Shown one piece after another: positions 18,774 through 46,607 of a DNA stretch of 64,000 bases. The translations under genes were made by a program, and so were the position numbers. The notes below the pieces were generated by a model. It was not told where the DNA came from and did not search any database. It saw only the letters and a list, made by a program, of their open reading frames with translations. The first letter of the stretch is position 1; every line of letters starts with the position of its first letter. Source of the DNA: Cellulophaga sp. F20128 (GTDB taxonomy: Bacteria; Bacteroidota; Bacteroidia; Flavobacteriales; Flavobacteriaceae); the NCBI RefSeq assembly GCF_023015805.1, contig NZ_JALKBA010000002.1:310001-374000 (forward strand), in the 5' to 3' direction.

Positions 18774-21308
18774 TTAAAATCGCAGTCTAAAACTTATATT
18801 AGGGGTACTACCCAAAGAGATGCTTTCAACAGTTTCTATTTCGTTTTCTGGGGAAACTCTATAGTATCTATTTAATACATTTTTTTTGTTTAAAATATTT
18901 AGAACGGAAGCGCCTATGGTGGCTTTTGTATTTTTGCTTATTCTAAAATTATACAAGGCAGAAACATCGGTTCGTAAGTAATAAGGAAGCCTACTACTGT
19001 TTGGGTCTTTGTAATTAATGCTATTGGGGAATACAAGTAGGTCTAAAGCGTTGTTTCCTTCCTTAGGCTCTGTATAGGGCTTTCCAGTATGGTAATTAAT
19101 ACCGACACCTAATTTTATTTTTTTGTAGTTGTAGGTGCCTGCAAAGGTAATATGATGTGTGATGTCTAAATTGTTAGGAAAAGTAGGTGGAGTAATGGTT
19201 TTAAAAGTGTAATTGTTTAAATTATAGGTATAACTTAACCAAGTGCTATAGGAGCTTGTTTTTTTATTAATTAAAAATTCGACCCCTTTTACATTGTATT
19301 TTCCTATTTCTCCATCAAATTGATCTTCATTTTGAAAGCCTTGGGTTAACGTACTAATACCTTTTACATCTTTGTAGAATCCTTCGATTCCAACATACAA
19401 TCGGTTGTGGTTGTATGTAAATCCTAACGAGGCCTGTTTGCTTGTGGTGATAGGCAGATTATCTTCATTCGCTAATATCCACCTTCTTTTTTCAACCCCT
19501 AAAAAATTTTGTTCTAAATCTATAATTTGATTGGTAGACTGACTCTTAAATTCGCCCAATAATTCTGTGTTGATGTTTTTAGCAAGTTTATAGTTTATGT
19601 TTACCCGAGGTTCAACAATCCATTTTTTAAAGGTGTTTATGTTTTCTATATGATTTATTCGGAGTCCGCCTTTCGCTTTAAGGCTCTTGGTTTGGAAGTC
19701 TAATTCCGAATAAATGGCATTAGTTCTAATAACACCTTTAATGTTTTTTCGGTAGGGTGGTTGGGTTACATTGGTGAAATTGATAATTCCGGTTTCAACC
19801 AATTGATATCCATTAAGCCAATATAGGCTTTTGCTTAGTTTGTATCTGGTGTTTAGTTTAATTCCGTTTTCTAAAACCTTATTGATTTGCTCCAATTGTT
19901 GATTGGGATCTGATGAAACACTACTGGCATTTAAATTGTAAAATGTACGGTAGGCATTAAATAAAGTAGAAAAATTGGAGCTCCAATTACTTTCAAGACT
20001 TCCTCCAAAAGAAGTGTTACGTTGGTCTAAAGTGCTAAGGCTTGTTTTGTCATCGACAGTTTCCTGATAGTCCAAGGCATTATTCATTTGTATAAAACTA
20101 ATTCTTAGTTTTTGACTTTCATTTATATCGTACAATATTTTTGCAGAAAAGTCATAAAAATAGAAATCTTCATTCCGTGTTATTTCCGTGCTGCTAGATT
20201 TATTTTCAATTTCACTGTCTTGAAATGCCTTATCAAAAAACATAGTGTAGGTAGGAGAGTTTAAAAAATCAGTTACCGAGCGCCTTACGGAGAATTGAAA
20301 AGCAGTTTTTTTGTTAATTGGTAGTTGGCCAAAAACATCGGCACTAATCATTGTAAATCCGGCTCCCCCTGTAAAACCTTCTGTTATCTCGTTGTTGGTA
20401 CGCATATCAATAACACTGCTTATTCCGTCGCCAAATTGAGAGCTAGTTCCATTTTTTGTAATGGTTACTTTATTGGTGAGGTAGGGGTTAAAGGCTGATA
20501 TTAAACCAAAAAAATGCCCCGATTGATACATTTTTATACCCTCCCATAGAATTAAATTTTGGTCGTTTGTTCCCCCCCGAACATTAATGTTTGATACGGT
20601 TTCATTGATGCTTTTTATGCCGGGTAAGGCTTGGGCGGTTTGTAAAACATCAGGTTCTATTAATCCTGGTAGAATTCCAAAATTTTCAGTATTTAAAACT
20701 ATGCTACCATCTAGGTTTTTAGTTAAACCGGTGGTTAAAAATTGTGAAATTGTAATCTCATCCAGTTCTTCATAATGCTGATCCATTAAAAAGTAGGGGC
20801 AAGGAACATTAGTTGATAGTTCACTTGCTCTTATATATAAGGTTTTAAAACCGATAAAACGCACTCGTATTACGGCGTCTTTTGTAATATTTTTTAAAGT
20901 AAAGCTGCCATTCGTATTTGTAATGGTGCTTTGATTGTCACCTAATACTTCTACGCTGGCGCCAATAATGGTGTTCTGTTGAAAATTATCTAGAATCGTA
21001 CCGCAAACCCTAGCGTATTTTTTGGTAGTTACTGCATAGTATCTATCACTGAGTTTGGCAAAGGTTATATCCGTTTCTTTTTTTATATGATTAAGGATGT
21101 CTTCAATCTTTTTGCTTTTGGAAGGGACAATTGAAATGTTCTCAATACTTGTGTTTATATAGGAAAATTTAACTGTAAACTGTTGTTCTAATTGCTGTAG
21201 GTATGCAATTAAAGGCAGGGTGTTATGAGTTGCTTGTGCTTTAGCTGAATTGCTTAAGACAAGAAAAAAAAGACATAAAATAAATTTAAATTCGTTATTT
21301 TTTAGCAT
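18774..21308 (-). CDS. TonB-dependent receptor with STN and carboxypeptidase-like domains
   Basis: Outer-membrane active transporter of the FecA-like class. The 844-residue protein has a signal peptide, an STN secretin-like domain (about 26-85) for contact with a FecR protein, a carboxypeptidase-D-like regulatory domain (about 90-165), a TonB plug (about 195-310, with NINVRGGTNDQNLILWEGI) and a 22-strand-type barrel ending in aromatic F-R-L-R-F. Its start overlaps the fecR stop by 14 bases, so the two are translationally coupled. No SusD partner is present. The substrate is unknown. Confidence 0.9.
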   Translation of the reverse strand: MLKNNEFKFILCLFFLVLSNSAKAQATHNTLPLIAYLQQLEQQFTVKFSYINTSIENISIVPSKSKKIEDILNHIKKETDITFAKLSDRYYAVTTKKYARVCGTILDNFQQNTIIGASVEVLGDNQSTITNTNGSFTLKNITKDAVIRVRFIGFKTLYIRASELSTNVPCPYFLMDQHYEELDEITISQFLTTGLTKNLDGSIVLNTENFGILPGLIEPDVLQTAQALPGIKSINETVSNINVRGGTNDQNLILWEGIKMYQSGHFFGLISAFNPYLTNKVTITKNGTSSQFGDGISSVIDMRTNNEITEGFTGGAGFTMISADVFGQLPINKKTAFQFSVRRSVTDFLNSPTYTMFFDKAFQDSEIENKSSSTEITRNEDFYFYDFSAKILYDINESQKLRISFIQMNNALDYQETVDDKTSLSTLDQRNTSFGGSLESNWSSNFSTLFNAYRTFYNLNASSVSSDPNQQLEQINKVLENGIKLNTRYKLSKSLYWLNGYQLVETGIINFTNVTQPPYRKNIKGVIRTNAIYSELDFQTKSLKAKGGLRINHIENINTFKKWIVEPRVNINYKLAKNINTELLGEFKSQSTNQIIDLEQNFLGVEKRRWILANEDNLPITTSKQASLGFTYNHNRLYVGIEGFYKDVKGISTLTQGFQNEDQFDGEIGKYNVKGVEFLINKKTSSYSTWLSYTYNLNNYTFKTITPPTFPNNLDITHHITFAGTYNYKKIKLGVGINYHTGKPYTEPKEGNNALDLLVFPNSINYKDPNSSRLPYYLRTDVSALYNFRISKNTKATIGASVLNILNKKNVLNRYYRVSPENEIETVESISLGSTPNISFRLRF

Positions 21309-22200
21309 AAAACAACACCTTATTCTTCTCTAATTTATAACTTATTTGAGAAGGAATACTTATACTCTGCAACGCTAATTCTAAATTTTTGTTGCTAAAT
21401 GAGCCTGTGAAAAGTTGATCGGTATCAATGTCATTTGAAGTAACTGTAATATTAAATTGCCGTTGAAGTTCATTGAGAACAAATGATAAAGGAATACTGT
21501 TAAATGAACTTTCGTTTTGTGTCCAAGAAGGTACTAAGGTAGTTGTTTGAGCTGTAGGCGCAATTTTTCCATTCACAACCATAAAAGAAGAGCCTGCAGG
21601 TATTTTTGTTACTTTGCCGTTGTAAGTTACGCTTACCAAACCTTCATAACAAGTAACTTCAAAAAAGTTGTTTCTCGCTTCAACATTAAATTGAGTTCCC
21701 AAGACAGCCACAGTACCTTGATCTGTAGAAACCGTGAATTTTTTACCCTTAGCAACTTTAAAAAATGCTTCTCCTTGTAAGGAGATGTTTCTGTTCTTCT
21801 CCCATTTATTTTTGTTGTACGCTATTTTTGATTCCGCATTCAATAAAATTTCAGAAGCATCAGGGAGAATTACTTCGTTATTTTGGGCGTAATCTGTACG
21901 TATGGTTTCCTCTAATGAATTTGTGTAAAAATAAGCAATACCACAAATTAGAACTATAGCTGCGGCAACTCCAATATATTTAGTAAACGTATTTAGTTTT
22001 AACACCTTAGGCTCTGCTCTAAATCGTTTTGCGTTAATGGACTGTAAAGCCTTATTTTCATTATAATCAGGTGCTTTTAAATTATTAGAAGCAGCTATTA
22101 TTTTCTGATAAGAAGTGTATTCATCCGACTTTTTAAATTGGATGGTTTCTTCTTCAGATAACTCATTGTTTAGCCACTTTGCCAAGTAATTCTCTTGCAT
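21295..22200 (-). CDS. FecR-family anti-sigma factor
   Basis: Inner-membrane anti-sigma/transducer that relays receptor occupancy to an ECF sigma factor. The 301-residue protein has a cytosolic N-terminal part, one transmembrane helix (YIGVAAAIVLICGIAYFY), a FecR domain (from about 110) and a C-terminal DUF4974/STN-like domain (IPLSFVLNELQRQFNITVTS). The usual adjacent sigma gene is missing; the nearest same-strand ECF gene is 7.5 kb upstream at 29671-30183. The start is preceded by the shared GTAGGGT/TTGTT promoter. Confidence 0.93.
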   Translation of the reverse strand: MQENYLAKWLNNELSEEETIQFKKSDEYTSYQKIIAASNNLKAPDYNENKALQSINAKRFRAEPKVLKLNTFTKYIGVAAAIVLICGIAYFYTNSLEETIRTDYAQNNEVILPDASEILLNAESKIAYNKNKWEKNRNISLQGEAFFKVAKGKKFTVSTDQGTVAVLGTQFNVEARNNFFEVTCYEGLVSVTYNGKVTKIPAGSSFMVVNGKIAPTAQTTTLVPSWTQNESSFNSIPLSFVLNELQRQFNITVTSNDIDTDQLFTGSFSNKNLELALQSISIPSQISYKLEKNKVLFYAKK

Positions 22201-22223: not shown

Positions 22224-22249
22224 AACAATATAAAAGTAAAAAACCCTAC
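22224..22249 (-). promoter_or_regulatory. Candidate ECF promoter of fecR-receptor operon
   Basis: On the minus strand GTAGGG is followed by a T-run and, starting 21 bases downstream of its first G, TTGTT. The same two blocks at the identical distance precede the lipoprotein at 30298 and the metalloprotease at 46541. TTGTT ends 23 bases before the fecR ATG. Confidence 0.65.
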
Positions 22250-22282: not shown

Positions 22283-22574
22283 TCATAACTGTTACTTTGG
22301 AATTCATAGGGTTGGTTTTAGGTTTATGTCTCAAAAAAATAATTTAGTTTTTATACAGACAAACTGTTTAAAATGAATTCTATGCGCAATCAGTGTACCT
22401 CAAAGTTTTGGATAGGTGCATATAAATCGTAAGAGCAGAAATAATTGGTTTCTTTGTTGTTGAAAAGTATTGGGTGTTTGTATTGTCTTCTACCTAAATT
22501 ATATGACTTATATTTATGGAATTATTTTAAGAATTGAGATTAATTTGGTTAATTCTGTCTATTCGTGGAATTAT

Positions 22575-24587
22575 ATGCATTTATTTAGAAAATTACTGTT
22601 TTGTTTCTTAGTACATTTTACCTCTGCGGTTTGCTTTGGCCAAGCCAGAATAAATGAAAGAATTGTCATTGTAAAAGAAGTAGATAGTGTATCTAAAACG
22701 TACAATGGAATTTTTATTTCCGGTTCCAATACTGCCTATGTAGATAATGGATCTAGGTATACGGTATTGGATTTAAAAAGGGCAGATTTTAATTTTTGGA
22801 ATCCGAGACGCTTAGATTCGTTGCTATTGGAGCATCGTGTTTTCCCTGATATTGTACTTTCTGAAAATAGTTTCCTGGTTCCTAGGTATGTTGATAGCTT
22901 AAATAAAGTGAGTTACCATAAAGTTAATGCTATAATTAATGAGCTGCCTTTAGAAAATGTAAATTGGAAAGAGCTTTCTAAGGTATATACAACAGGGGAA
23001 TTCATTAGTACATCCAATCAGCTTTCACCTAAAAAAAGGGGATTTTGGTTTTCTCCAGATGTTTTTAATTTTTCAGCCAATAATTTACAAGGAGCAAAGG
23101 TATTCAAAGCCTTTAAATATGATTTAAAGGAGAAGTTGAGGATTAGTATCTCTTACAATGAAAATGCTTATAATACAATGTCTAATGATGATGTGTTAAC
23201 TGGTAATGATTTGGTGGTAGGTTATGATAAAGTACGAGGAAAGACAGCTAGTTTTAATGGAAAAACAAGTTATATTGATGTTAAAACTGCAACTGAAATT
23301 CACTTTAAAGAATTGTCCATTACCGCCTGGATAAAACCTAAAACTATAGAAGGTGCGCTAAGTATTGTAGGTAAAGGAGAGGTTTTTTCTGCAAAAATTA
23401 ACAATGGGTATTTGCAATTTACATCGCCAAAAATTAAGGATCATTTTACAAAGAAAATAGTAGTGAAGCCTAATGAGTGGATACATATTGCGTATGTGTA
23501 TATCCCAAATGATAAAATGTTTTTTTATGTAAATGGCAAGCTCATAGAAGAGCAAAAAGCTTTTGAGATAGATCAAACAAATCATTCTGTTTTAATAGGA
23601 ACTAATCTTTGGGGGGAAAATTATCACGGCCTAATGAGTGATTTTAATATGTGGACCAGGGCCTTAAGTGATGATGAAGTTAATGAGGTGTATAAAGGAG
23701 GTCTTGTTTCTAATGGAGAGGTATATTCTGGTTATGCTGTTACGCTATGGACTGTAGGTATTTTACTTATCCTTATTGTTGGTCTTATTTTAAGTAAGGC
23801 GGTATGGGGTAAAAAGAAATTATTAAATGACCGGAAATCTGTTCATCTTGACTCTTATGCCACATCAGGACCTTTACAGTATCATGTGCAGTGTTTGGGA
23901 GGCTTTAAAATTTTAAGTAAAGATTTTGAAGATATTTCACATAAATTTTCTCCCAAAAGGAGAGAATTGTTTTTGCTTATTTTGCTTTATACCTTACGGG
24001 AAGGTGGCATTACTTCAAAAAAATTAGGAGCAATTTTGTGGCCAAATTTTTCACCGTCAAATGTTAAGAACAACAGAAGTACACAGATAAGGGAAATAAG
24101 AAATATTTTTGAAAATTATCTCAACTTGGATATCGTCTACTCTGATAAGAAATGGAAAGTAATGCTAGGAGAAGATGTTAAAGTTGATATAGTAGCATTG
24201 CAAAAAATGATGGATAACATATTTAGAAACAAATCCAAGGTAACGGAAAATGCAATGCCAAACATAGTTCAACTTATTAATCAAGGGACATTGCTTCCAA
24301 ATATTGAAGTAGATTGGTTAGATGAACTTAAAGGGCAATATGGAAATGTAGTATTAGATAGTTTAATTCCTTTTTTAGAGACAAAGGAAACGCTTTCAAA
24401 GAATTTGTTGTTAGATCTTTCGAATGCCATTTTAATTGTTGACCCTTTACATGAGCAAGCTTTAAAAGTTAAGCTAGAAGTGTTAACAGCTCAAGGTAAG
24501 CATATGTCTGTAAAAAAGGAGATTGAAAACTTTATGAAATTGTACGAGAAATTTTATAGGGAACCCTATAGTGAAAAACTTATTTAA
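22575..24587 (+). CDS. Membrane-tethered LamG-SARP transcriptional regulator
   Basis: The ATG at 22575 is preferred because it is followed at once by a signal peptide (MHLFRKLLFCFLVHFTSAV); the frame is open from 22470. The 670-residue protein has a periplasmic part with a LamG/concanavalin-like domain (about 215-375: KTASFNGKTSYIDV, WIHIAYVYI, MWTRALSDDEVNEVY). One transmembrane helix follows (about 387-407), then a cytoplasmic SARP/OmpR-type winged helix (about 440-530: FSPKRRELFLLILLYTLREG, LWPNFSPSNVKNN) and a helical tail. I infer that glycan or polymer sensing outside is coupled to transcription inside. Its target is probably the two genes immediately downstream. Confidence 0.8.
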   Translation: MHLFRKLLFCFLVHFTSAVCFGQARINERIVIVKEVDSVSKTYNGIFISGSNTAYVDNGSRYTVLDLKRADFNFWNPRRLDSLLLEHRVFPDIVLSENSFLVPRYVDSLNKVSYHKVNAIINELPLENVNWKELSKVYTTGEFISTSNQLSPKKRGFWFSPDVFNFSANNLQGAKVFKAFKYDLKEKLRISISYNENAYNTMSNDDVLTGNDLVVGYDKVRGKTASFNGKTSYIDVKTATEIHFKELSITAWIKPKTIEGALSIVGKGEVFSAKINNGYLQFTSPKIKDHFTKKIVVKPNEWIHIAYVYIPNDKMFFYVNGKLIEEQKAFEIDQTNHSVLIGTNLWGENYHGLMSDFNMWTRALSDDEVNEVYKGGLVSNGEVYSGYAVTLWTVGILLILIVGLILSKAVWGKKKLLNDRKSVHLDSYATSGPLQYHVQCLGGFKILSKDFEDISHKFSPKRRELFLLILLYTLREGGITSKKLGAILWPNFSPSNVKNNRSTQIREIRNIFENYLNLDIVYSDKKWKVMLGEDVKVDIVALQKMMDNIFRNKSKVTENAMPNIVQLINQGTLLPNIEVDWLDELKGQYGNVVLDSLIPFLETKETLSKNLLLDLSNAILIVDPLHEQALKVKLEVLTAQGKHMSVKKEIENFMKLYEKFYREPYSEKLI

Positions 24588-24904
24588 AGCTTAAAAGGAA
24601 TACTTTTAAAAAAGTATCCAACTAAAAATAGTATGGGTTAAATGGGTGAACTTTGGGTTAGACTCAGAGTTTTTTGTTAAAAAGTTGTCTATATTTTCAA
24701 TATTACCCCATTTATTACCCCTAATGATACATCCTATAGATTAGATTTACAGGACGTAATAGTGAAAACTGCATTTCCTGAACATTATTTTAATAAAAGT
24801 CATCAAATTTTATTTTTGGTGAATAATCGATTGTGTATCGAAGGAAAAGTTAAGTAGTTATTGCATACCTAAAAGTCAAATCAAAATATTGAAAAGATTA
24901 GCAT
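24588..24904. other. Intergenic region before the oxidoreductase gene, with repeated GGGT motifs
   Basis: A 317-base gap. It contains an 8-base imperfect hairpin at 24597-24619, three direct repeats TGGGTkA (24634, 24643, 24654) and two copies of TTACCCC (24703, 24715). I see no gene in it; the repeats are candidate regulator sites. Confidence 0.5.
24634..24722 (+). promoter_or_regulatory. Direct repeats TGGGTkA and TTACCCC, candidate SARP operator
   Basis: TGGGTTA at 24634, TGGGTGA at 24643 and TGGGTTA at 24654 are spaced 9 and 11 bases apart. TTACCCC occurs at 24703 and 24715, 12 bases apart and in the opposite sense. SARP regulators are known to bind short direct repeats about one helical turn apart, so these sites fit the neighbouring regulator. 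This is inference. Confidence 0.4.
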
Positions 24905-26173
24905 ATGAAAGAACAGTTAAATAAGAGACGAGATTTTGTGAAAAAAACTATTGTGGCAGCAGCTGGCATTAGTATTATTCCACGACACGTAATGGGGGGT
25001 ACTAATTTTATGGCGCCGAGTGATCAATTAACAAAGGCAGTAATTGGTGTAGGTGGTATGGGACAAGGCCACCTAACTTATGAGGATACTAAGCTTTTAG
25101 CTATCTGTGATGCTGATGCAAACCATTTGGCTTCTACATTGCAAAGGGTAGGTGATGATGTCAAGGGCTATAGGGATTTTCGTGAAGTTTTAGCTAGACC
25201 AGATATAGATATTGTACATATCGCTACGCCGCCACATTGGCACGGTTTAATGTCTATTATGGCTGCTGAGGCTGGTAAAGATGTTTGGTGTGAAAAACCG
25301 ATGACAAGAACAATTGGTGAAGGTAAAAGAGTTGTTGAGGCCATGCAACAACACGGTAAAATGTTCCGATTAAATACTTGGTTCCGTTTTAAAGACAATT
25401 TCTACGGAATGGGGACTCCAGTTAAAAAATTAAAGAAAGTAGTGGATAGTGGTGTTTTGGGTTGGCCTTTAAAAGTTACTATCAGTGGGGTTACCGGTTT
25501 TAACTGGAAATTCTATTGGGTAGGGAAAGAAAATCTAATGCCACAAGCTGTTCCAACACAATTGGATTATAATATGTGGTTGGGTCCTGCGCCAGAAAAA
25601 CCATACAATCCGCACAGAGTACATTCTACTTTTAGAGGGTATTGGGATTATGATGGTGGTGGTTTAGGAGATATGGGACAACACTATATCGATCCTGTAC
25701 AATATTTCCTAGGAAAAGATAATGAGAGTCCGGTTAAAGTTGAAGTAGATGCTCCCCAGCAGCATTATGATGCAATTGGTACATGGCGTAAAATTGTTTA
25801 TACCTATGCCGATGGATGTCAGATTATTTTAGATGGTGAAAATAAAGATAAAGATGCTGCCTATATAGATGGACCTGATGGAAAAATTTACAACGGATTT
25901 AAATCGACCATTCCTAATATTGAAAGTATTATAAATGCAACGCCAGACCCAGAAGAACAAATTACTGTTTTTTCAGAATCTGTACGTACCCGTAAGAAGT
26001 TTGCTTTAAATGAAGAAAACGGACACCGATCTGCTACAGTAGTTAATATGGGGATTATTGCCTTGCGTTTGGGTAGAACATTAGAGTTTGATCCGGTAAA
26101 GCAAGAATTTATTAATGATGAAGAAGCAAATAGATTAATAAACCAACCAATGAGAACTTCTTGGGCGCACTAA
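24905..26173 (+). CDS. Tat-exported Gfo/Idh/MocA oxidoreductase
   Basis: NAD(P)-linked sugar oxidoreductase family. The 422-residue protein opens with a twin-arginine signal, KRRDFVKKTIVAAAGISIIP, so it is exported folded with bound cofactor. The Rossmann motif GVGGMGQG follows near residue 48, and the family EKP motif is in CEKPMTR. Next to a DUF1080 hydrolase this type of enzyme is associated with oxidation of sugars at C3 to keto-glycosides. The downstream gene's upstream TTG codon overlaps its end, and the preferred ATG there is 20 bases on, so they form one operon. Confidence 0.88.
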   Translation: MKEQLNKRRDFVKKTIVAAAGISIIPRHVMGGTNFMAPSDQLTKAVIGVGGMGQGHLTYEDTKLLAICDADANHLASTLQRVGDDVKGYRDFREVLARPDIDIVHIATPPHWHGLMSIMAAEAGKDVWCEKPMTRTIGEGKRVVEAMQQHGKMFRLNTWFRFKDNFYGMGTPVKKLKKVVDSGVLGWPLKVTISGVTGFNWKFYWVGKENLMPQAVPTQLDYNMWLGPAPEKPYNPHRVHSTFRGYWDYDGGGLGDMGQHYIDPVQYFLGKDNESPVKVEVDAPQQHYDAIGTWRKIVYTYADGCQIILDGENKDKDAAYIDGPDGKIYNGFKSTIPNIESIINATPDPEEQITVFSESVRTRKKFALNEENGHRSATVVNMGIIALRLGRTLEFDPVKQEFINDEEANRLINQPMRTSWAH

Positions 26174-26193
26174 TTAAAAAAGATTACTTAAAA

Positions 26194-29100
26194 ATGAAAA
26201 AAAATATATTCAAAATAACAGCTTTACTTTTATTTGTTAGTTGCTCTTTCAATTTGTCAGCACAAATAAATAGAACAATAGAAACCAAAGTTGCAGACAT
26301 TTTAGCGCAAATGCCAACAGATAATCTAGACCATTCTAACAAGGTTATGGAAGAGATTATAGGTATGGGGGAAAATGGAATTTTAAAATTTACAGACATG
26401 CTCGTGCCTTTAGGCACTGGTGATGATACCAAGGTGAGATACGCCCTGCAAAGTGTCGCTATTTATAGCGGAGGAAAAGAGAAAATTATTAGTAATGGGG
26501 TTGTAGAGAATGCTTTATTGCAAGCCATTAAAAAAGCTTCTAATGATGAAGTGAAAACGTTCTTGATTGATCGATTGTTGTATTGTGGTACTGCTAAAAG
26601 TGTAGCGCAATTAAGTGGATATTTATCAGATGATAAATTGTATAAGCCTGCCCTGGCCGCTTTAGAGTCTATTGGAACTACAACAGCTTCAAAGGCAATT
26701 TTAAATGCTGCATCTACTGCTAGTTCAGATAAGCAATTGGCGTTAATAAATACCTTAGGTAAATTAGAATATGAACCCGCTACAGATTTGCTATTAGAAT
26801 TGGCAACTTCCAACGCTATTGCAACCCAAGAAGAATCGTTAAGAGCATTGGCTTCAATTGGGGCTGTAAATGCAATGGGGACCCTTGTCGCAGCTGCAAA
26901 TAATGCAAATTATAGATTGGATAATTCCAGTGCTATTATTTCTCTTATTGCTTATGGAAATAAGTTGGCAGATAATGGGAATAAAACATTGAGTAATGAG
27001 GTTGTAGACTTGTTGCTAAAGAATTGTAAAGCTGATGATCAATTGCATTTTAGATCAGCAGCCGTTCATTTGTTGAGAGCAAACAATGGAACACTTGCAA
27101 ATAAGACCTTGTTGAAAGAATCCTTGCATGAAAACAAAAATTATAGTGCTGCGGTTATAGACGCAGCAGCACAAAATTTAAGCAGCGAAGAGGCGACGAA
27201 ATGGGTGAAAAATTATAAAAAAGCATCTACTACAGTGAAGCCATTAATACTAAATATGTTGGCAAGTAGGGAAGAGGCTGTTGTGTATAATAAGGCTATT
27301 CTTCCTGCAATATCTCATAAAGACCAAGGGGTGCGTATTGCGGGAATTAAGGCATTAGCACATCAAGATAAAACCAAAGTATTGCCGGTATTATTAACGG
27401 CATTAAATAAGGCGAAATCATCTGAAGAGTTAGTTGCTATTGAAGAAACCTTAAGCAAAGTTGCCGCCGCAAAAGATGCTTCAATATTAGCCAAAAGCCT
27501 AAGCGGTGCTAATGGAAAAGCAAAAGAAGTCCTTGTTAATGTATTGGCTGCCAGAGATGCTTCTACCCAATTTGGAACTATTACAGGCTTATTAAACAGC
27601 GCTGATTCAGATTTAAAGGCAACAATTTATAAGGCATTGCCCTCTATTTCTGGAAAAGAAAATTTATCAGAATTGTTAGTTTTGTTAGAAAAGTCAAGCA
27701 CTGCTGCCAATACTACAAATACCCAAAATGCAATTAGTGCCATCCTTAACAGTTCTAAGGAGGATACGGCTGCTGTAATTTACGATGCGTTTGGTAGTGC
27801 TTCTGACAAATCAAAATTGACACCAATTTTGGCAACCTTAAGCACGGAAAAGGCTTTAGAATTGGTTGCCGAGCAATTAAATTCTGGGACAGAAAATGGA
27901 AGAAAAATTGCCTTGGATGCATTGTCTAACTGGAAGACCAATGATGCAATTGCCCTATTGTTTAAAACCGTTTCTGAGAATGGAAATCAAAGTATTAAAG
28001 ACAGAGCTTTTGGAAAGTATTTGGATAAAGTTTTAAAATCTGCGAATCCTGATGATCAGAAATTATTATTGGTTACCAAGTTGTTGCCTTTTAGTAATTC
28101 TGTAGACGATAAAAAGCAATTGATAAAATCAGCTTCGAGAATAAAAACATTCTTGTCTTTAATATTTGTATCTAAATTTTTAGATGATAGTCAGCTTTTA
28201 ACCACTGCTTCTAACGCGGCAATACAATTGGCTTTACCAACACCAGGTAAAGAAAATGGATTAAGTGGCGATGTAGTTCGAGACATAGTTTCTAGAAGTG
28301 TAAACAACTTAACGGGTCCAGATAGTCAATATGTTAAAATAGACGTCAAAGAATTTTTAGAAAAAATGCCAAAGGATAAAGGCTTTGTTTCCATTTTTAA
28401 TGGCAAAGATTTATCGGGATGGGAAGGTTTGGTGAAAAATCCAATTGCCAGAGGTAAAATGTCTGAGAAGGAATTAGCGAAAGAACAAGCAAAGGCGAAC
28501 GCCCAGATGCTGCAAGATTGGTATGTAAAGGATGGTGTTATTGGTTTTAAAGGTGAAGGCTATAATAATATCTGTACCATTAAAGATTATGCAGATTTTG
28601 AAATGCTTGTAGATTGGAAAATTACCAATGGCGGTGATAGTGGAATTTACTTAAGAGGTACACCTCAGGTGCAAATTTGGGATATAGCCCGTGTAAATGT
28701 TGGAGCACAAGTTGGAAGTGGTGGTTTGTACAATAACCAAAAACATCAGAAAGATCCTTTAGTTGTTGCAGATAACCCTATTAATGAATGGAATACCTTT
28801 AGAATTAAAATGGTAGGTGATCGTGTAACGATACATTTAAATGGTGTTTTGGTGACAGACAATGTAATTTTAGAAAATTACTGGGATAGAGAACAAGCAA
28901 TATTTGCCAAAGAAGCAATTGAATTGCAGGCACATGGTGAAGACCTAGGATTTAGAAATGTATATGTTAGGGAGATTCCGTCAGGGGATGATTTGTTAAC
29001 TGATGCCGAAAAATCTGAAGGCTTTAAATCATTGTTCAATGGTAAAGATTTAGGTCATTGGATTGGAAACAAAAAAGATTATTTGGCAGAGAATGGAGAA

Positions 29101-29598
29101 ATAGCGGTGAAACCAAAGCAAGGCGGATATGGCAATCTATACACAGCTAATGAATATTCAGATTTTGTTTTTAGATTTGAATTTAAGTTAACGCCTGGTG
29201 CAAACAACGGTTTGGGGATTCATGCTCCCTTACAAGGAGATGCAGCCTATGAAGCCAAGGAATTGCAGATCTTGGATAATACTGCTGCCATTTATGCAAA
29301 CCTTGAGGAATATCAATATCACGGATCTGTATATGGTGTGATCGCTGCTAAACGAGGATTTTTAAATCCAGTTGGAGAATGGAATTCAGAAGAAGTTATT
29401 GTAAAAGGCGATGCTATTAAAATCACATTAAATGGTACGGTTATATTGGAAGGTAATTTTAAAGAAGCTTCTAAAAATGGAACCTTAGATGGTAAAAATC
29501 ATCCTGGCTTAGATCGTAATAATGGACATATTGGCTTTTTAGGCCATGGCTCAGAATTGTGGTTCCGCAATATTCGTATTAAGGATTTAACAAAATAA
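26194..29598 (+). CDS. Secreted HEAT-repeat protein with two DUF1080 (3-keto-glycoside hydrolase-type) domains
   Basis: The ATG at 26194 is chosen because MKKNIFKITALLLFVSCSF is a signal peptide; an upstream TTG at 26161 adds 11 residues before it. The 1134-residue protein has a long helical HEAT-like region (about 30-720) and then two DUF1080 jelly-roll domains. The first begins at about 728 (FVSIFNGKDLSGWEG), the second at about 942 (FKSLFNGKDLGHWIG). DUF1080 proteins include 3-keto-disaccharide hydrolases. Together with the exported oxidoreductase upstream it suggests oxidative cleavage of glycosidic bonds in the periplasm. The HEAT part may be a scaffold. Confidence 0.87.
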   Translation: MKKNIFKITALLLFVSCSFNLSAQINRTIETKVADILAQMPTDNLDHSNKVMEEIIGMGENGILKFTDMLVPLGTGDDTKVRYALQSVAIYSGGKEKIISNGVVENALLQAIKKASNDEVKTFLIDRLLYCGTAKSVAQLSGYLSDDKLYKPALAALESIGTTTASKAILNAASTASSDKQLALINTLGKLEYEPATDLLLELATSNAIATQEESLRALASIGAVNAMGTLVAAANNANYRLDNSSAIISLIAYGNKLADNGNKTLSNEVVDLLLKNCKADDQLHFRSAAVHLLRANNGTLANKTLLKESLHENKNYSAAVIDAAAQNLSSEEATKWVKNYKKASTTVKPLILNMLASREEAVVYNKAILPAISHKDQGVRIAGIKALAHQDKTKVLPVLLTALNKAKSSEELVAIEETLSKVAAAKDASILAKSLSGANGKAKEVLVNVLAARDASTQFGTITGLLNSADSDLKATIYKALPSISGKENLSELLVLLEKSSTAANTTNTQNAISAILNSSKEDTAAVIYDAFGSASDKSKLTPILATLSTEKALELVAEQLNSGTENGRKIALDALSNWKTNDAIALLFKTVSENGNQSIKDRAFGKYLDKVLKSANPDDQKLLLVTKLLPFSNSVDDKKQLIKSASRIKTFLSLIFVSKFLDDSQLLTTASNAAIQLALPTPGKENGLSGDVVRDIVSRSVNNLTGPDSQYVKIDVKEFLEKMPKDKGFVSIFNGKDLSGWEGLVKNPIARGKMSEKELAKEQAKANAQMLQDWYVKDGVIGFKGEGYNNICTIKDYADFEMLVDWKITNGGDSGIYLRGTPQVQIWDIARVNVGAQVGSGGLYNNQKHQKDPLVVADNPINEWNTFRIKMVGDRVTIHLNGVLVTDNVILENYWDREQAIFAKEAIELQAHGEDLGFRNVYVREIPSGDDLLTDAEKSEGFKSLFNGKDLGHWIGNKKDYLAENGEIAVKPKQGGYGNLYTANEYSDFVFRFEFKLTPGANNGLGIHAPLQGDAAYEAKELQILDNTAAIYANLEEYQYHGSVYGVIAAKRGFLNPVGEWNSEEVIVKGDAIKITLNGTVILEGNFKEASKNGTLDGKNHPGLDRNNGHIGFLGHGSELWFRNIRIKDLTK

Positions 29599-29670: not shown

Positions 29671-30183
29671 TTAGATTCCATCAATGTGCTCCCGTAATGT
29701 TTTTAGTGCCAAATGCATTCTTTTTTCTATTGCTTTTACACTTACTCCTTCCATTTCAGCAATCTCTGCATATTTTTTTTTATCAATTCGATTTAATAAA
29801 AAAGTAGTACGTTGATTTTCAGGTAAACGTGCTAAGGCATTTTCTAATTTTTCATGAAACTGTTTTTCCTCAAGTAGGAATTCAGGGGTTTCATGGGTTA
29901 CATCAGTATTTAAATGTGCGTATTTAAGGCGTACTTTTTCCGCCTTAATCATATTTAAATACAGGTTATTAGCAATAGTGTAGACGTAAGATTTAGCCTT
30001 GCTTGGAATTACCTTTGCGCAATTTTCCCAGAGTTTTACAAATGCCTCTTGTACTGCGTCGTAAGCCTTTTCTTCATTGCCAAACTTATAATATATATAG
30101 TTAAAAACCGTTTTGGAATTAGTTGTAAAGAGGTGATTGTAGATTTTCTCTTCGCAAACGTTAGTATGATCATTTATATCCAA
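29671..30183 (-). CDS. ECF RNA polymerase sigma factor
   Basis: The 170-residue sigma-70 family protein has region 2 (FNYIYYKFGNEEKAYDAVQE, AFVKLWENC, YVYTIANNLYLNMI) and region 4 (LPENQRTTFLLNRIDKKKY, EIAEMEGVSVKAIEKRM). It resembles sigma factors normally encoded next to FecR, but here its neighbours are a divergent repeat lipoprotein and, beyond the convergent HEAT-DUF1080 gene, nothing of that type. The fecR-receptor pair on the same strand lies 7.5 kb downstream and shares a promoter motif with the lipoprotein gene. Confidence 0.93.
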   Translation of the reverse strand: MDINDHTNVCEEKIYNHLFTTNSKTVFNYIYYKFGNEEKAYDAVQEAFVKLWENCAKVIPSKAKSYVYTIANNLYLNMIKAEKVRLKYAHLNTDVTHETPEFLLEEKQFHEKLENALARLPENQRTTFLLNRIDKKKYAEIAEMEGVSVKAIEKRMHLALKTLREHIDGI

Positions 30184-30236
30184 AGTGTCTCTATTTTGTT
30201 TTTTTCAAAGGTATTTTAAAAAAATGAATCTTTTAG

Positions 30237-30262
30237 GTAGGGTATTTTTAAAGTTAATTGTT
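30237..30262 (+). promoter_or_regulatory. Candidate ECF promoter of the repeat lipoprotein gene
   Basis: AGGTAGGGTATTTT (from 30235) is followed by TTGTT at 30258, at the same spacing as in the other two copies. It sits in the divergent gap between the sigma gene and the lipoprotein gene, 36 bases before the latter's ATG. Confidence 0.65.
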
Positions 30263-30297: not shown

Positions 30298-32067
30298 ATG
30301 AAAAATTTTGTCACCAAATTTATGTTTGCCATCCTACTAATGGCTGCATTTAGTTTATCCTCTTGTCAAGAAGAGTTTGAAGAATTACCTAATAATACCA
30401 ATGAAGAAGCTATCGTAGCATCTTCTAGTACTGCAAAGTTAATAGAAAGGGCATCTTCTAAAGATGGTTCTTTTGATAATATTGTGGATGGCGCAAGTTG
30501 TTTTGCTGTTCAATTTCCATATACTGTTAATGTAGATGGTTTAGATATTACCATTGATTCTATAGAAGACCTAGAATTAATAGAAGAAATTTTTGATACC
30601 GTTGAAACAGACGATGATATTTTAGAAATTCTTTTTCCTATTACCATAACACTAGCCGATTACTCTGAAATTGTAATTAATTCAAAGGAAGAATTACGAT
30701 CAATTGCCAAAGAGTGTATTGAGGGTGGTGATGATGATGATATTGAATGTATTGATTTTGTTTATCCTGTAACCTTGTACTCATTTAGTGTTAATTTGGA
30801 AAAAACAAGTACTGTAACTGTTGAAAATGATAGGCAATTAAGACGATTCTTCGGAGATTTAGAGGATCATGAACTAGTAAGTTTTGATTTTCCATTGACC
30901 TTAGAGCAGTATGATGGAACAAAAATTACTGTAGAAAATAATGCAGAATTAGCTTTGGCATTAGAGAACGCAGAAGATATGTGTGATGAGGATGATGATG
31001 ATGATTATAACGATGATGATTTCACAAAAGAAAGATTAGATAATTATCTTGTAGAATGCCCTTGGTTGGTTCGAGATGTAATTAGAAGTAGTCAAGATCA
31101 ATCAGCTCAGTATTTTGAGTATCTAATGAACTTTAAAGAAGATGGAACCGTAATCGTTAAAGATAGAGTAGGGAATTCTATAGAAGGAAACTGGTCAACT
31201 AGAGTTGGCGCCAATAGCAATAGGGTGTTGTTAAAATTAGAGTTTACAGTTTTAGTAGATTTCAATTTAGAATGGTTTGTGTATGAATTGGGTGATGGTA
31301 TCATTAAGTTTTACGCAAATGATGGGGCCGATAAAATTTTAATGAAGCGTTTTTGTGTAGATAATGATACTCCAGATACGCTTAGAGGACTTTTGAAAGA
31401 GTGTAATTGGATTATTAAAAAAGTAAAACTTAACAATGAGGAAATAAATAGATTGTTAGGATACGAGTTTAGTTTCCTTGCTGATGGTGTGGTAACCTTA
31501 AGTAACAAAACAACAACTTCTCAAGGTACATGGGCAATTACTACAAATGCACAAGGTAGGCTAGTTATGGCAATTACAATGGGCGATGAACCAGGAGTAA
31601 GTTTTGAATGGTTGATATCAGATTTAAGAAATGAACGTTTAAAGTTTAGTATAGAAGGTACTTATTATGAACTTATCTTGGAACGAAATTGTGATGATGA
31701 TGAAAATGATGAAGATGTAACATGGATTCGTGGCATATTTGATGAAACGAAATGGGAAGTGGATTTGTTCTCTCAAAATGAGGATGATATCACAGAGGGT
31801 TATGCAACAGACACCTATAGTTTTACTGCAGATGGAGAAGTAATCATTACAAACCCAAATGACCAGGAATTAGATAGAGGTAGCTGGCGTGTGTATAGAA
31901 ATAGTGAAGGAACCTTAGAAATGATACTTAACTTTTCTGATAATAGTAATTACCATCCTTTAGCCAATGATTATGTTATTTTGGAAGTTGAAGAAGACGA
32001 AATCTCATTAAAGCATAAAAATGATGATGGTAGTTATGATAGATTAGATTTTGAATTGATAGAATAG
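30298..32067 (+). CDS. Acidic repeat lipoprotein with lipocalin-like units
   Basis: The 589-residue protein has an SPII signal with lipobox SLSSC. An N-terminal array of four related units follows (about residues 70, 108, 151, 194), each with a [FY]P[YIVL]T[VIL] strand and then an I[TV][IV] strand. After a DDDD-rich linker near 235 come three tandem units of about 110 residues, each starting with C/T-x-W and containing a GTW/GNW/GSW strand, which resemble lipocalin-like folds. The four-unit part may be an adhesin or binding array. It is divergent from the ECF sigma gene and carries the shared promoter. Function unknown. Confidence 0.85.
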   Translation: MKNFVTKFMFAILLMAAFSLSSCQEEFEELPNNTNEEAIVASSSTAKLIERASSKDGSFDNIVDGASCFAVQFPYTVNVDGLDITIDSIEDLELIEEIFDTVETDDDILEILFPITITLADYSEIVINSKEELRSIAKECIEGGDDDDIECIDFVYPVTLYSFSVNLEKTSTVTVENDRQLRRFFGDLEDHELVSFDFPLTLEQYDGTKITVENNAELALALENAEDMCDEDDDDDYNDDDFTKERLDNYLVECPWLVRDVIRSSQDQSAQYFEYLMNFKEDGTVIVKDRVGNSIEGNWSTRVGANSNRVLLKLEFTVLVDFNLEWFVYELGDGIIKFYANDGADKILMKRFCVDNDTPDTLRGLLKECNWIIKKVKLNNEEINRLLGYEFSFLADGVVTLSNKTTTSQGTWAITTNAQGRLVMAITMGDEPGVSFEWLISDLRNERLKFSIEGTYYELILERNCDDDENDEDVTWIRGIFDETKWEVDLFSQNEDDITEGYATDTYSFTADGEVIITNPNDQELDRGSWRVYRNSEGTLEMILNFSDNSNYHPLANDYVILEVEEDEISLKHKNDDGSYDRLDFELIE

Positions 32068-45740: not shown

Positions 45741-46541
45741 TTATCGCCCGCCATTGGCTTTTAAATCGGCAATACACTCAGCGTCTAAAGTAGGAGCTGA
45801 ATTTTTACTGGCAACTAACATTTTTTTCATACCGCCACCAAACTCTAATTCGGTACTCATTAAACAATTTAGGGTAGTACAATGGCTGTTGCCAACTTCA
45901 TTTCCCTCTTCATCTGTGGTTTGTTCCTCGTGGTTGTTTACCATTTCACTTCCTAAATTGACCAAGCCCATTAAGTGTCCCATTTCATGGTTAAGCGTTG
46001 CTTCTTCAACCGCCGCTTCAGTGATTAAAAAACTCTTGGCAGTTAATTTTTTTATGGTTGCTTCGTAAATGATCATGGATGTATTTCTGTAAACAGCTCC
46101 CAAGGTAACAGCATTGGTGTCTTCTTCATCATTTTCAGAAGGAGCATCTGCAAAATAAATGTAAATAGATAGTGTTTTGCCTTTGGTATATTGGGTGCGA
46201 TTTTCAGTTTCTAAACTGGCAATTTTTTTTAAACTTAAGGTAGTTTCATTCGGAGAACTAAGTTCTTTATAAACAACACTAATGTTATCTTTAAATGTAG
46301 TAGCTTTAATAAAGCTTATAAAATTTGCAATGCTTTCAGTACTTGGTTTGTAATTTTTGACATAGGCTATTTCAAAAGTTAAGGCATCGTAATTAACATT
46401 GGAAAGAATATCATTTGCAGAGTCTCCAGAAGCTTTTAAATTGGCAGCAGTATTGGTTTTTATAGAATCCTGATCACTAGAATCTTTGGAACAACCCATT
46501 ATCAATAGGAAAGCAAAACACAATACACTAAAATTTTTCAT
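45741..46541 (-). CDS. Lipoprotein zinc metalloprotease (metzincin-like)
   Basis: The 266-residue protein has an SPII signal (FAFLLIMGC, Cys at 17). The zinc motif HEMGHLMGLVN near residue 186 is of the extended HExxHxxG type, with a later CLM Met-turn candidate in NCLMSTE. It should be anchored in the outer or inner membrane facing outward. Its start is preceded by the shared GTAGGGT/TTGTT promoter, which suggests it belongs to the same ECF regulon as the repeat lipoprotein and fecR. Confidence 0.85.
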   Translation of the reverse strand: MKNFSVLCFAFLLIMGCSKDSSDQDSIKTNTAANLKASGDSANDILSNVNYDALTFEIAYVKNYKPSTESIANFISFIKATTFKDNISVVYKELSSPNETTLSLKKIASLETENRTQYTKGKTLSIYIYFADAPSENDEEDTNAVTLGAVYRNTSMIIYEATIKKLTAKSFLITEAAVEEATLNHEMGHLMGLVNLGSEMVNNHEEQTTDEEGNEVGNSHCTTLNCLMSTELEFGGGMKKMLVASKNSAPTLDAECIADLKANGGR

Positions 46542-46557
46542 AAACCTTTTTTATAAT

Positions 46558-46583
46558 AACAAGACGCTGGCAAAATACCCTAC
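46558..46583 (-). promoter_or_regulatory. Candidate ECF promoter of the metalloprotease gene
   Basis: On the minus strand AGGTAGGGTATTTT is a perfect 14-base match to the copy at 30235, followed by TTGTT at the same distance. TTGTT ends 16 bases before the ATG. A CGTC, a common ECF -10 core, lies immediately before TTGTT here only. Confidence 0.65.
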
Positions 46584-46607
46584 CTTTAAACGTGACAAAG
46601 TCTGGTT

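Follow-up and report, generated by a model that had tools for sequence, protein, structure and literature searches.

Three sites in the window, by which we mean the whole 64,000-nucleotide stretch of DNA analysed here, carry the same two-box, promoter-like sequence, and one of them lies beside a gene for an ECF sigma factor. This raises the question of whether they form a common regulon with the neighbouring sigma factor as its reader. Judging from the sequence, we consider it highly probable that they are promoters of a single regulon read by the ECF sigma factor encoded at 29671-30183, and this protein is by far the likeliest reader of the motif. The features concerned are the following.

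18774-21308, minus strand: TonB-dependent-receptor-like protein, its gene sharing 14 nt with the end of fecR (Pfam CarbopepD_reg_2 and Plug above cut-off)
21295-22200, minus strand: FecR-like anti-sigma factor (Pfam FecR and FecR_C above cut-off)
22224-22249, minus strand: putative ECF-type promoter of fecR, exact match
22470-29598, plus strand: three-gene cassette between fecR and the sigma gene, encoding LamG, Gfo/Idh/MocA, and HEAT plus 3-keto-disaccharide hydrolase proteins (Pfam)
29671-30183, minus strand: ECF sigma factor, 170 aa, TTG start (Pfam Sigma70_r2, r4_2 and r4 above cut-off)
30206-30213, minus strand: TACCTTTG, housekeeping-type TAnnTTTG box before the sigma gene (sequence match)
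30237-30262, plus strand: putative ECF-type promoter of the repeat lipoprotein, with GTAGGGT as -35-like and TTGTT as -10-like box, exact match
30298-32067, plus strand: lipoprotein divergent from the sigma gene (from its translation), with predicted beta-alpha repeats followed by three barrel-like domains
45741-46541, minus strand: putative metalloprotease lipoprotein with the sequence HEMGH (from its translation; Reprolysin_3 match below cut-off)
46558-46583, minus strand: putative ECF-type promoter of the metalloprotease-like lipoprotein, exact match

The original prediction described GTAGGGT and TTGTT at identical spacing at the three sites, and the pattern GTAGGGT-N14-TTGTT indeed matched exactly at each of them, TTGTT starting at position 22. 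Two of the copies had also been said to share a sequence exactly; this was confirmed for the 14-mer AGGTAGGGTATTTT, present at 30235 (plus strand) and 46572-46585 (minus strand). The distance from the end of TTGTT to the ATG was 23 nt for fecR, 35 nt for the lipoprotein (start at 30298), and 16 nt for the metalloprotease-like lipoprotein (start at 46541). A tighter pattern, GTAGGGTNTT-N11-TTGTT, had 3 matches in the window versus 0 in 100 dinucleotide shuffles. When two mismatches were allowed, the motif showed no enrichment in the window (10 matches seen, 6.8 expected), and its meaning is therefore confined to near-exact copies. The consensus would be GTAGGGT-W-TTT-N10-TTGTT, the 14-base gap after GTAGGGT appearing fixed.

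A search of the 4.17-Mb genome with the exact 14-spaced pattern had been proposed with the original prediction as a check. Eight matches were found: five were intergenic (the three window sites and two upstream of small ORFs), and three lay within genes. We took these three (L004, L005, L009) to be due to chance. The presence of 3 of the 8 exact matches within 64 kb had a p value of 0.0002 in a post hoc test. Mismatch-tolerant searches of the same genome yielded 31 matches versus 25 with the reversed control in one case, and 48 versus 32 in the other; the last 18 of the 48 matches, all with one mismatch, were left out of the locus assignment. Matches with one or two mismatches were dropped except for a 143-aa gene (L301), which was retained because the same gene recurs behind exact motifs elsewhere.

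The sigma protein is short and comprises Sigma70 regions 2 and 4 only, the domain content of ECF (group 4) factors (Pfam), and a two-box promoter of its own at the targets, the second mark of this group, would be provided by the fixed GTAGGGT-N14-TTGTT. Its best match was TIGR02985, a Bacteroidetes sigma subfamily, with 112.2 bits, below the curated cut-off of 126.4. It had been called the only sigma factor seen, which holds for the window, where it is the sole Sigma70_r2 match, but not for the genome, which encodes 26 such proteins.

FecR proteins hold ECF sigma factors and relay signals from TonB receptors. In the present case, a FecR-type regulator is linked to the sigma factor, usually adjacent to it in relatives and 7 kb apart in the window, and the unit includes a TonB-dependent receptor gene (Plug and CarbopepD_reg_2 domains) that overlaps fecR. 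The receptor-like protein is a possible signal transducer. FecA-type transducers are expected to have an STN signalling domain; residues 37-88 in the N-terminus of the receptor gave a FecR_C/STN-like match below the cut-off, and the top Foldseek match was a SusC NTE domain, no FecA or STN domain being named among the 50 matches listed. The divergent lipoprotein, for which the predicted structure had a mean pLDDT of 77 and a pTM of 0.46, matched no Pfam or NCBIfam family at E ≤ 0.001. TbpB and DUF4847 were discarded as hints to its function, being weak Foldseek matches with low TM.

Both promoters flanking the sigma gene were well conserved in the named relatives, i.e., the best 80 of 325, which include Cellulophaga, Maribacter, Zobellia, Flagellimonas, Eudoraea, Arenibacter, and others. 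In these 80, the exact core was found upstream of fecR at 70 of the 77 loci with an identified fecR start, and in the gap between the sigma and lipoprotein genes at 78 of 80. The seven fecR exceptions all keep GTAGGGT, six being one base off in TTGTT and the seventh (L233) being complete with a 15-base gap; the two lipoprotein-promoter exceptions (L259 and L292) are likewise one base off in TTGTT. If one TTGTT base was allowed to vary, the gap was 14 in 79/80 and 75/76 matched sites of the same best 80. TTGTT ended 22-24 nt upstream of the fecR ATG at 68 of 70 of these loci and 112 nt upstream at the other two; for the lipoprotein, the distance was measured at 20 loci and came to 32-37 nt.

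Upstream of the metalloprotease-like gene, the motif was present at 7 of 30 ortholog loci (5 exact, 2 near), in close relatives only, and this gene is a predicted, lineage-specific member of the regulon. At the motif-less orthologs (L159-L181), we noticed by eye a CGTTA at a -10-like place in 15 of 23, a hint that one ECF promoter type may have been exchanged for another.

The motif and the sigma factor also occurred together across genomes. Sigma relatives (E ≤ 1e-20) and FecR relatives (E ≤ 1e-25) were found in the same 44 of 100 genomes and in equal copy numbers (compared by eye); the own genome had a single match to the window sigma at E ≤ 1e-20. With the stricter pattern GTAGGGTWTT-N11-TTGTT, 100 relatives gave 96 matches in 26 genomes versus 7 for the reversed control (hand tally). 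Of these, 45 were local or preceded the metalloprotease gene and 51 were elsewhere, 48 of the latter being outside any 120-codon open frame. The same was true for 45 of 46 further non-local sites among the matches listed, which came only from genomes with a close sigma and from which at least one listed non-local site (G182) was left out. The motif was absent from two genomes of the same genus, one without a sigma match (G010) and one with 42-44% identical paralogs only (G017).

Among 299 family genomes, 47 (counting the own genome) had a close sigma ortholog at E ≤ 1e-70, and all of these contained the motif, as against 45 of the remaining 252 (Fisher p = 2e-29, uncorrected for phylogeny, the association being partly confounded by kinship). 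The corresponding site counts were 146 motif versus 7 reversed-control matches in the 47 genomes, and 75 versus 38 in the 252. Sixteen of these 75 came from a single genome (G273, L325-L340), in which the best sigma match was 59% identical; its 16 exact sites, none of which is inside a 150-codon frame, lie upstream of quite different genes, and this reads as an enlarged regulon.

We also looked at 16 distant loci (14 distinct), where the sigma proteins are 46-57% identical. The fecR box had a gap of 14 in 16/16 and consisted of GTAGGGT or GTAGGA with TTGTT, CTGTT, or TTGTC; the divergent promoter on the lipoprotein side was found in 12/16. When near and distant sigma sequences were pooled (106 distinct ones), both promoters could be read in 96 cases and were GTAGGG/GTAGGG in 92, GTAGGA/GTAGGA in 4, and mixed in none. 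One mixed locus (L088; GTAGGA before fecR and GTAGGT in the divergent gap) was outside the base choice of this search. Such mostly joint change is the trace that would be expected from one reader of both promoters, although the GTAGGA group is probably a single clade. Residues 156-158 in sigma region 4 were considered as the cause of the GTAGGG/GTAGGA difference and abandoned, the differences between the groups being spread along the whole protein and confounded with clade.

The sigma gene itself appears to be controlled differently. Upstream of it, no sense GTAGGG was found in any of the best 80 of 325 relatives (0/80), which ruled out the idea of sigma autoregulation, while a TAnnTTTG box was present within 90 nt in 75 of these 80, versus 4.4% of random windows. 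Therefore, the sigma gene is not its own target. Around the motif sites of the same 80 relatives, TAnnTTTG was found in 1/77 (fecR) and 0/80 (lipoprotein) cases, indicating that these sites are unlike housekeeping promoters.

The reading as one regulon thus rests on the conserved position and spacing of the sites, their co-occurrence with the sigma factor, the adjacency and equal copy number of sigma and fecR, and the mostly joint drift. The motif could also be the promoter of one or several different ECF sigma factors, its closeness to the window sigma being incidental. This would be in line with the presence of 26 Sigma70_r2 proteins in the genome, with the F. psychrophilum study, which allows several sigmas per motif in the part available to us (PMC9723704), and with the occurrence of the motif in some genomes without a close sigma ortholog. 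We nevertheless judge it improbable, since motif presence tracks the ortholog of the window sigma (47/47 versus 45/252), motifs flank its orthologs in nearly all named relatives and drift mostly jointly in distant clades, and the own genome has a single match to this sigma at E ≤ 1e-20. Another of the 26 proteins may read the motif in an overlapping manner.

It is still less probable that the fixed two-part sequence serves as the operator of a DNA-binding regulator, whether activating or repressing, rather than as a promoter recognised by a sigma factor: there are two boxes with rigid spacing, oriented toward the gene at a near-constant distance from the ATG, no housekeeping box accompanies them, and TGTT near -10 has been reported for ECF-type promoters of B. 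theta (PMC12596196, in the part available to us). Finally, a coincidence of AT-rich upstream sequence would agree with the near-chance number of 2-mismatch matches and with the intragenic position of 3 of the 8 exact genome matches, but the tighter pattern was absent from 100 shuffles and the sites are conserved across many genera; this explanation is refuted by the conservation data and retains practically no weight.

If the neighbouring sigma does read all three sites as promoters of a single regulon, the FecR-like protein would hold the sigma factor at the inner membrane until an outer signal, relayed via the TonB-receptor-like protein encoded after fecR, causes its release. The freed sigma would transcribe fecR and the receptor gene, a feedback on itself, as well as the divergent lipoprotein and the metalloprotease-like lipoprotein. 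Further targets would be two small membrane proteins and a secreted protein of 143 aa, while the sigma gene would be expressed from its housekeeping-type promoter. The best reading is a FecI/FecR-type sigma regulon with a small-protein and small-RNA arm, and its role is probably in sensing and remodelling of the cell surface or envelope.

The regulon had been predicted to be local. That it is one regulon, with the neighbouring sigma as its likeliest reader, agrees with our findings; it is not local, because at least three more likely targets sit on other contigs of the same genome. These are a 46-aa protein (C11) and a 55-aa protein (C21), both behind an exact motif, and the secreted 143-aa protein (C70, L301), which has a motif with one mismatch (GTGGGGT). 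Each type recurs behind the motif in other species. The dN/dS ratios (ratio of means, saturated pairs left out) were 0.18 for the 46-aa type (n = 7), 0.13 and 0.18 for the 55-aa type (n = 6 and 7), and 0.14 for the 143-aa type (n = 9), which supports the prediction that the three frames are coding. No Pfam family was found above cut-off for the small proteins or for the tested part of the 143-aa type.

By our reading, genes of the 46-aa type (26-46 aa) follow the motif at 19 of 97 non-local sites (51 + 46), and genes of the 55-aa type (about 54-61 aa) at 25. The 143-aa type accounts for 8 sites, the small RNA for 21, and fecR for 1, which leaves 23 others. For the 46-aa type, some assignments (3 among the first 51 sites and most among the further 46) were made by general resemblance. 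A glycosyltransferase-like gene recurs 136 nt behind the motif in L142 and 180 nt behind it in L366; the two loci come from different genomes of a single genus.

At the 21 RNA loci (L183, L207, L210, L341, L346, L350-L353, L356, L360, L361, L363, L367, L368, L370, L374, L376, L381, L383, and L385), the motif is followed by a stretch of ~100-175 nt made up of a 5' block, a core, and a hairpin with a T-run. The 5' block is like AAATTGCTATGA (absent in L376 and varied in several others), and the core lies around TGTTTAGGTTGGTTTT. The terminator hairpin was free of mismatches (G-U allowed) in 20/21 loci versus 3/400 random windows, and RNAalifold gave 12 pairs, 10 of them with double-sided changes, i.e., a covarying terminator. 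Rfam searches covered 6 of the 21 loci. They gave no match at the gathering score in four loci (3 of the 21 plus L211). At E ≤ 1, a search of four of the 21 brought up Phe_leader and L20_leader alone, both scoring far under the respective cut-offs. The core is not a peptide (MCLGWF...), since the variable T-run length and a variable ATG break the frame. Pairing of the core with translation starts gave no signal, matches of at least 9 being found in 25 of 1106 cases versus a mean of 20.7 (maximum 65) with shuffled cores. No site of the RNA type was found among the own-genome matches examined.

How does this system compare with known ones? Like FecI-FecR-FecA of E. coli and other Proteobacteria, it has an ECF sigma factor, a FecR-like regulator (FecR and FecR_C domains), and a TonB-receptor-like protein whose gene follows fecR. 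It differs in having its own promoter sequence, in that fecR and the receptor gene are predicted targets and the sigma gene is not, and in its divergent lipoprotein, small-protein, and small-RNA targets; moreover, STN was seen only below cut-off and there is no evidence for iron. E. coli sigma-E is an ECF sigma factor with small RNAs, and its regulon shares with the present one the envelope proteins and (in the relatives studied here) a terminator-ended small RNA; this likeness is one of description. We would tentatively go further and propose, with a confidence that falls a little short of even, a widespread envelope-sensing regulon of Flavobacteriaceae with its own promoter code, in which a FecI/FecR-type sigma factor drives surface lipoproteins and, in addition, an arm of minimal genes, namely two families of membrane proteins of 26-61 aa and a new trans-acting sRNA of ~100-175 nt. 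If true, Bacteroidota would have an equivalent of the small-RNA arm that belongs to sigma-E in E. coli, with the RNA seen in relatives only.

In the same family, sigma motifs SM1-SM6 have been described for Flavobacterium psychrophilum (this and what follows on SM motifs refers to the part of PMC9723704 available to us). A point of likeness is SM6, which is attributed to an ECF sigma factor and counts a sigma/anti-sigma operon and a regulatory RNA among its members. Points of difference are the CGT -10 box and the T9SS targets of SM6, and the sequence TAnnTTGY of SM5; GTAGGG is not described there. The -10-like box found here, TTGTT, is without CGT, and SM5 fits the fecR site of the window and not the other two; the A of its TA was found in 11% (fecR) and 8% (lipoprotein) of the best 80 of 325 relatives.

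In B. thetaiotaomicron, a non-canonical -30/-10 promoter (PM2) has been tied to ECF sigmas (PMC7366714, PMC12596196, both as available in part). It shares with our sites TGTT at about -10 and the link to ECF sigma factors, and differs in order, sigmas, and targets. Since TGTT occurs near -10 in these ECF-linked promoters (available part of PMC12596196), the TTGTT box fits a known kind, and what looks new is the GTAGGG box and the regulon. The EcfO-type and dual-membrane-spanning anti-sigma systems of Bacteroides (PMC9308784, PMC12596196, in part) are likewise ECF systems of Bacteroidota, answering oxidative or envelope stress. In the former report, as far as available, the anti-sigma factor is one protein that reaches an outer-membrane barrel, whereas here the FecR-like protein and the receptor come from separate genes.

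We found no description of the GTAGGG motif or its regulon in the open-access literature, mostly searched at listing level; three papers that combine GTAGGG, a flavobacterial name, and 'sigma factor' (PMC5399024, PMC7906972, PMC6613710) contained GTAGGG in primers only, in the parts available. For Bacteroidota, the promoter codes of ECF sigma factors have been worked out in few cases (PMC7366714, PMC12596196), although a single genome may carry 50 such sigmas (PMC12596196), according to the available parts of these reports. For one sigma factor, the motif would provide a concrete promoter that can be searched for, together with a list of targets conserved in many marine genera. It also predicts genes that tend to be overlooked (two microprotein families, one secreted protein, and one small RNA), and the putative response of marine flavobacteria at their envelope or surface becomes directly testable.

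A last observation concerns the 7-kb cassette that parts sigma and fecR in the window. Adjacency is the usual state in relatives, with a median sigma-fecR gap of 139 nt in the named ones (best 80 of 325). Related cassette genes likewise lie between sigma and fecR in L221, and the fecR promoter is retained despite the split both there and in the window. The cassette adjoins the sigma gene in L261, on a contig where no fecR was found, and it lies beyond the receptor gene in two Arenibacter loci (L259 and L284). It is thus repeatedly associated with the sigma/fecR unit.
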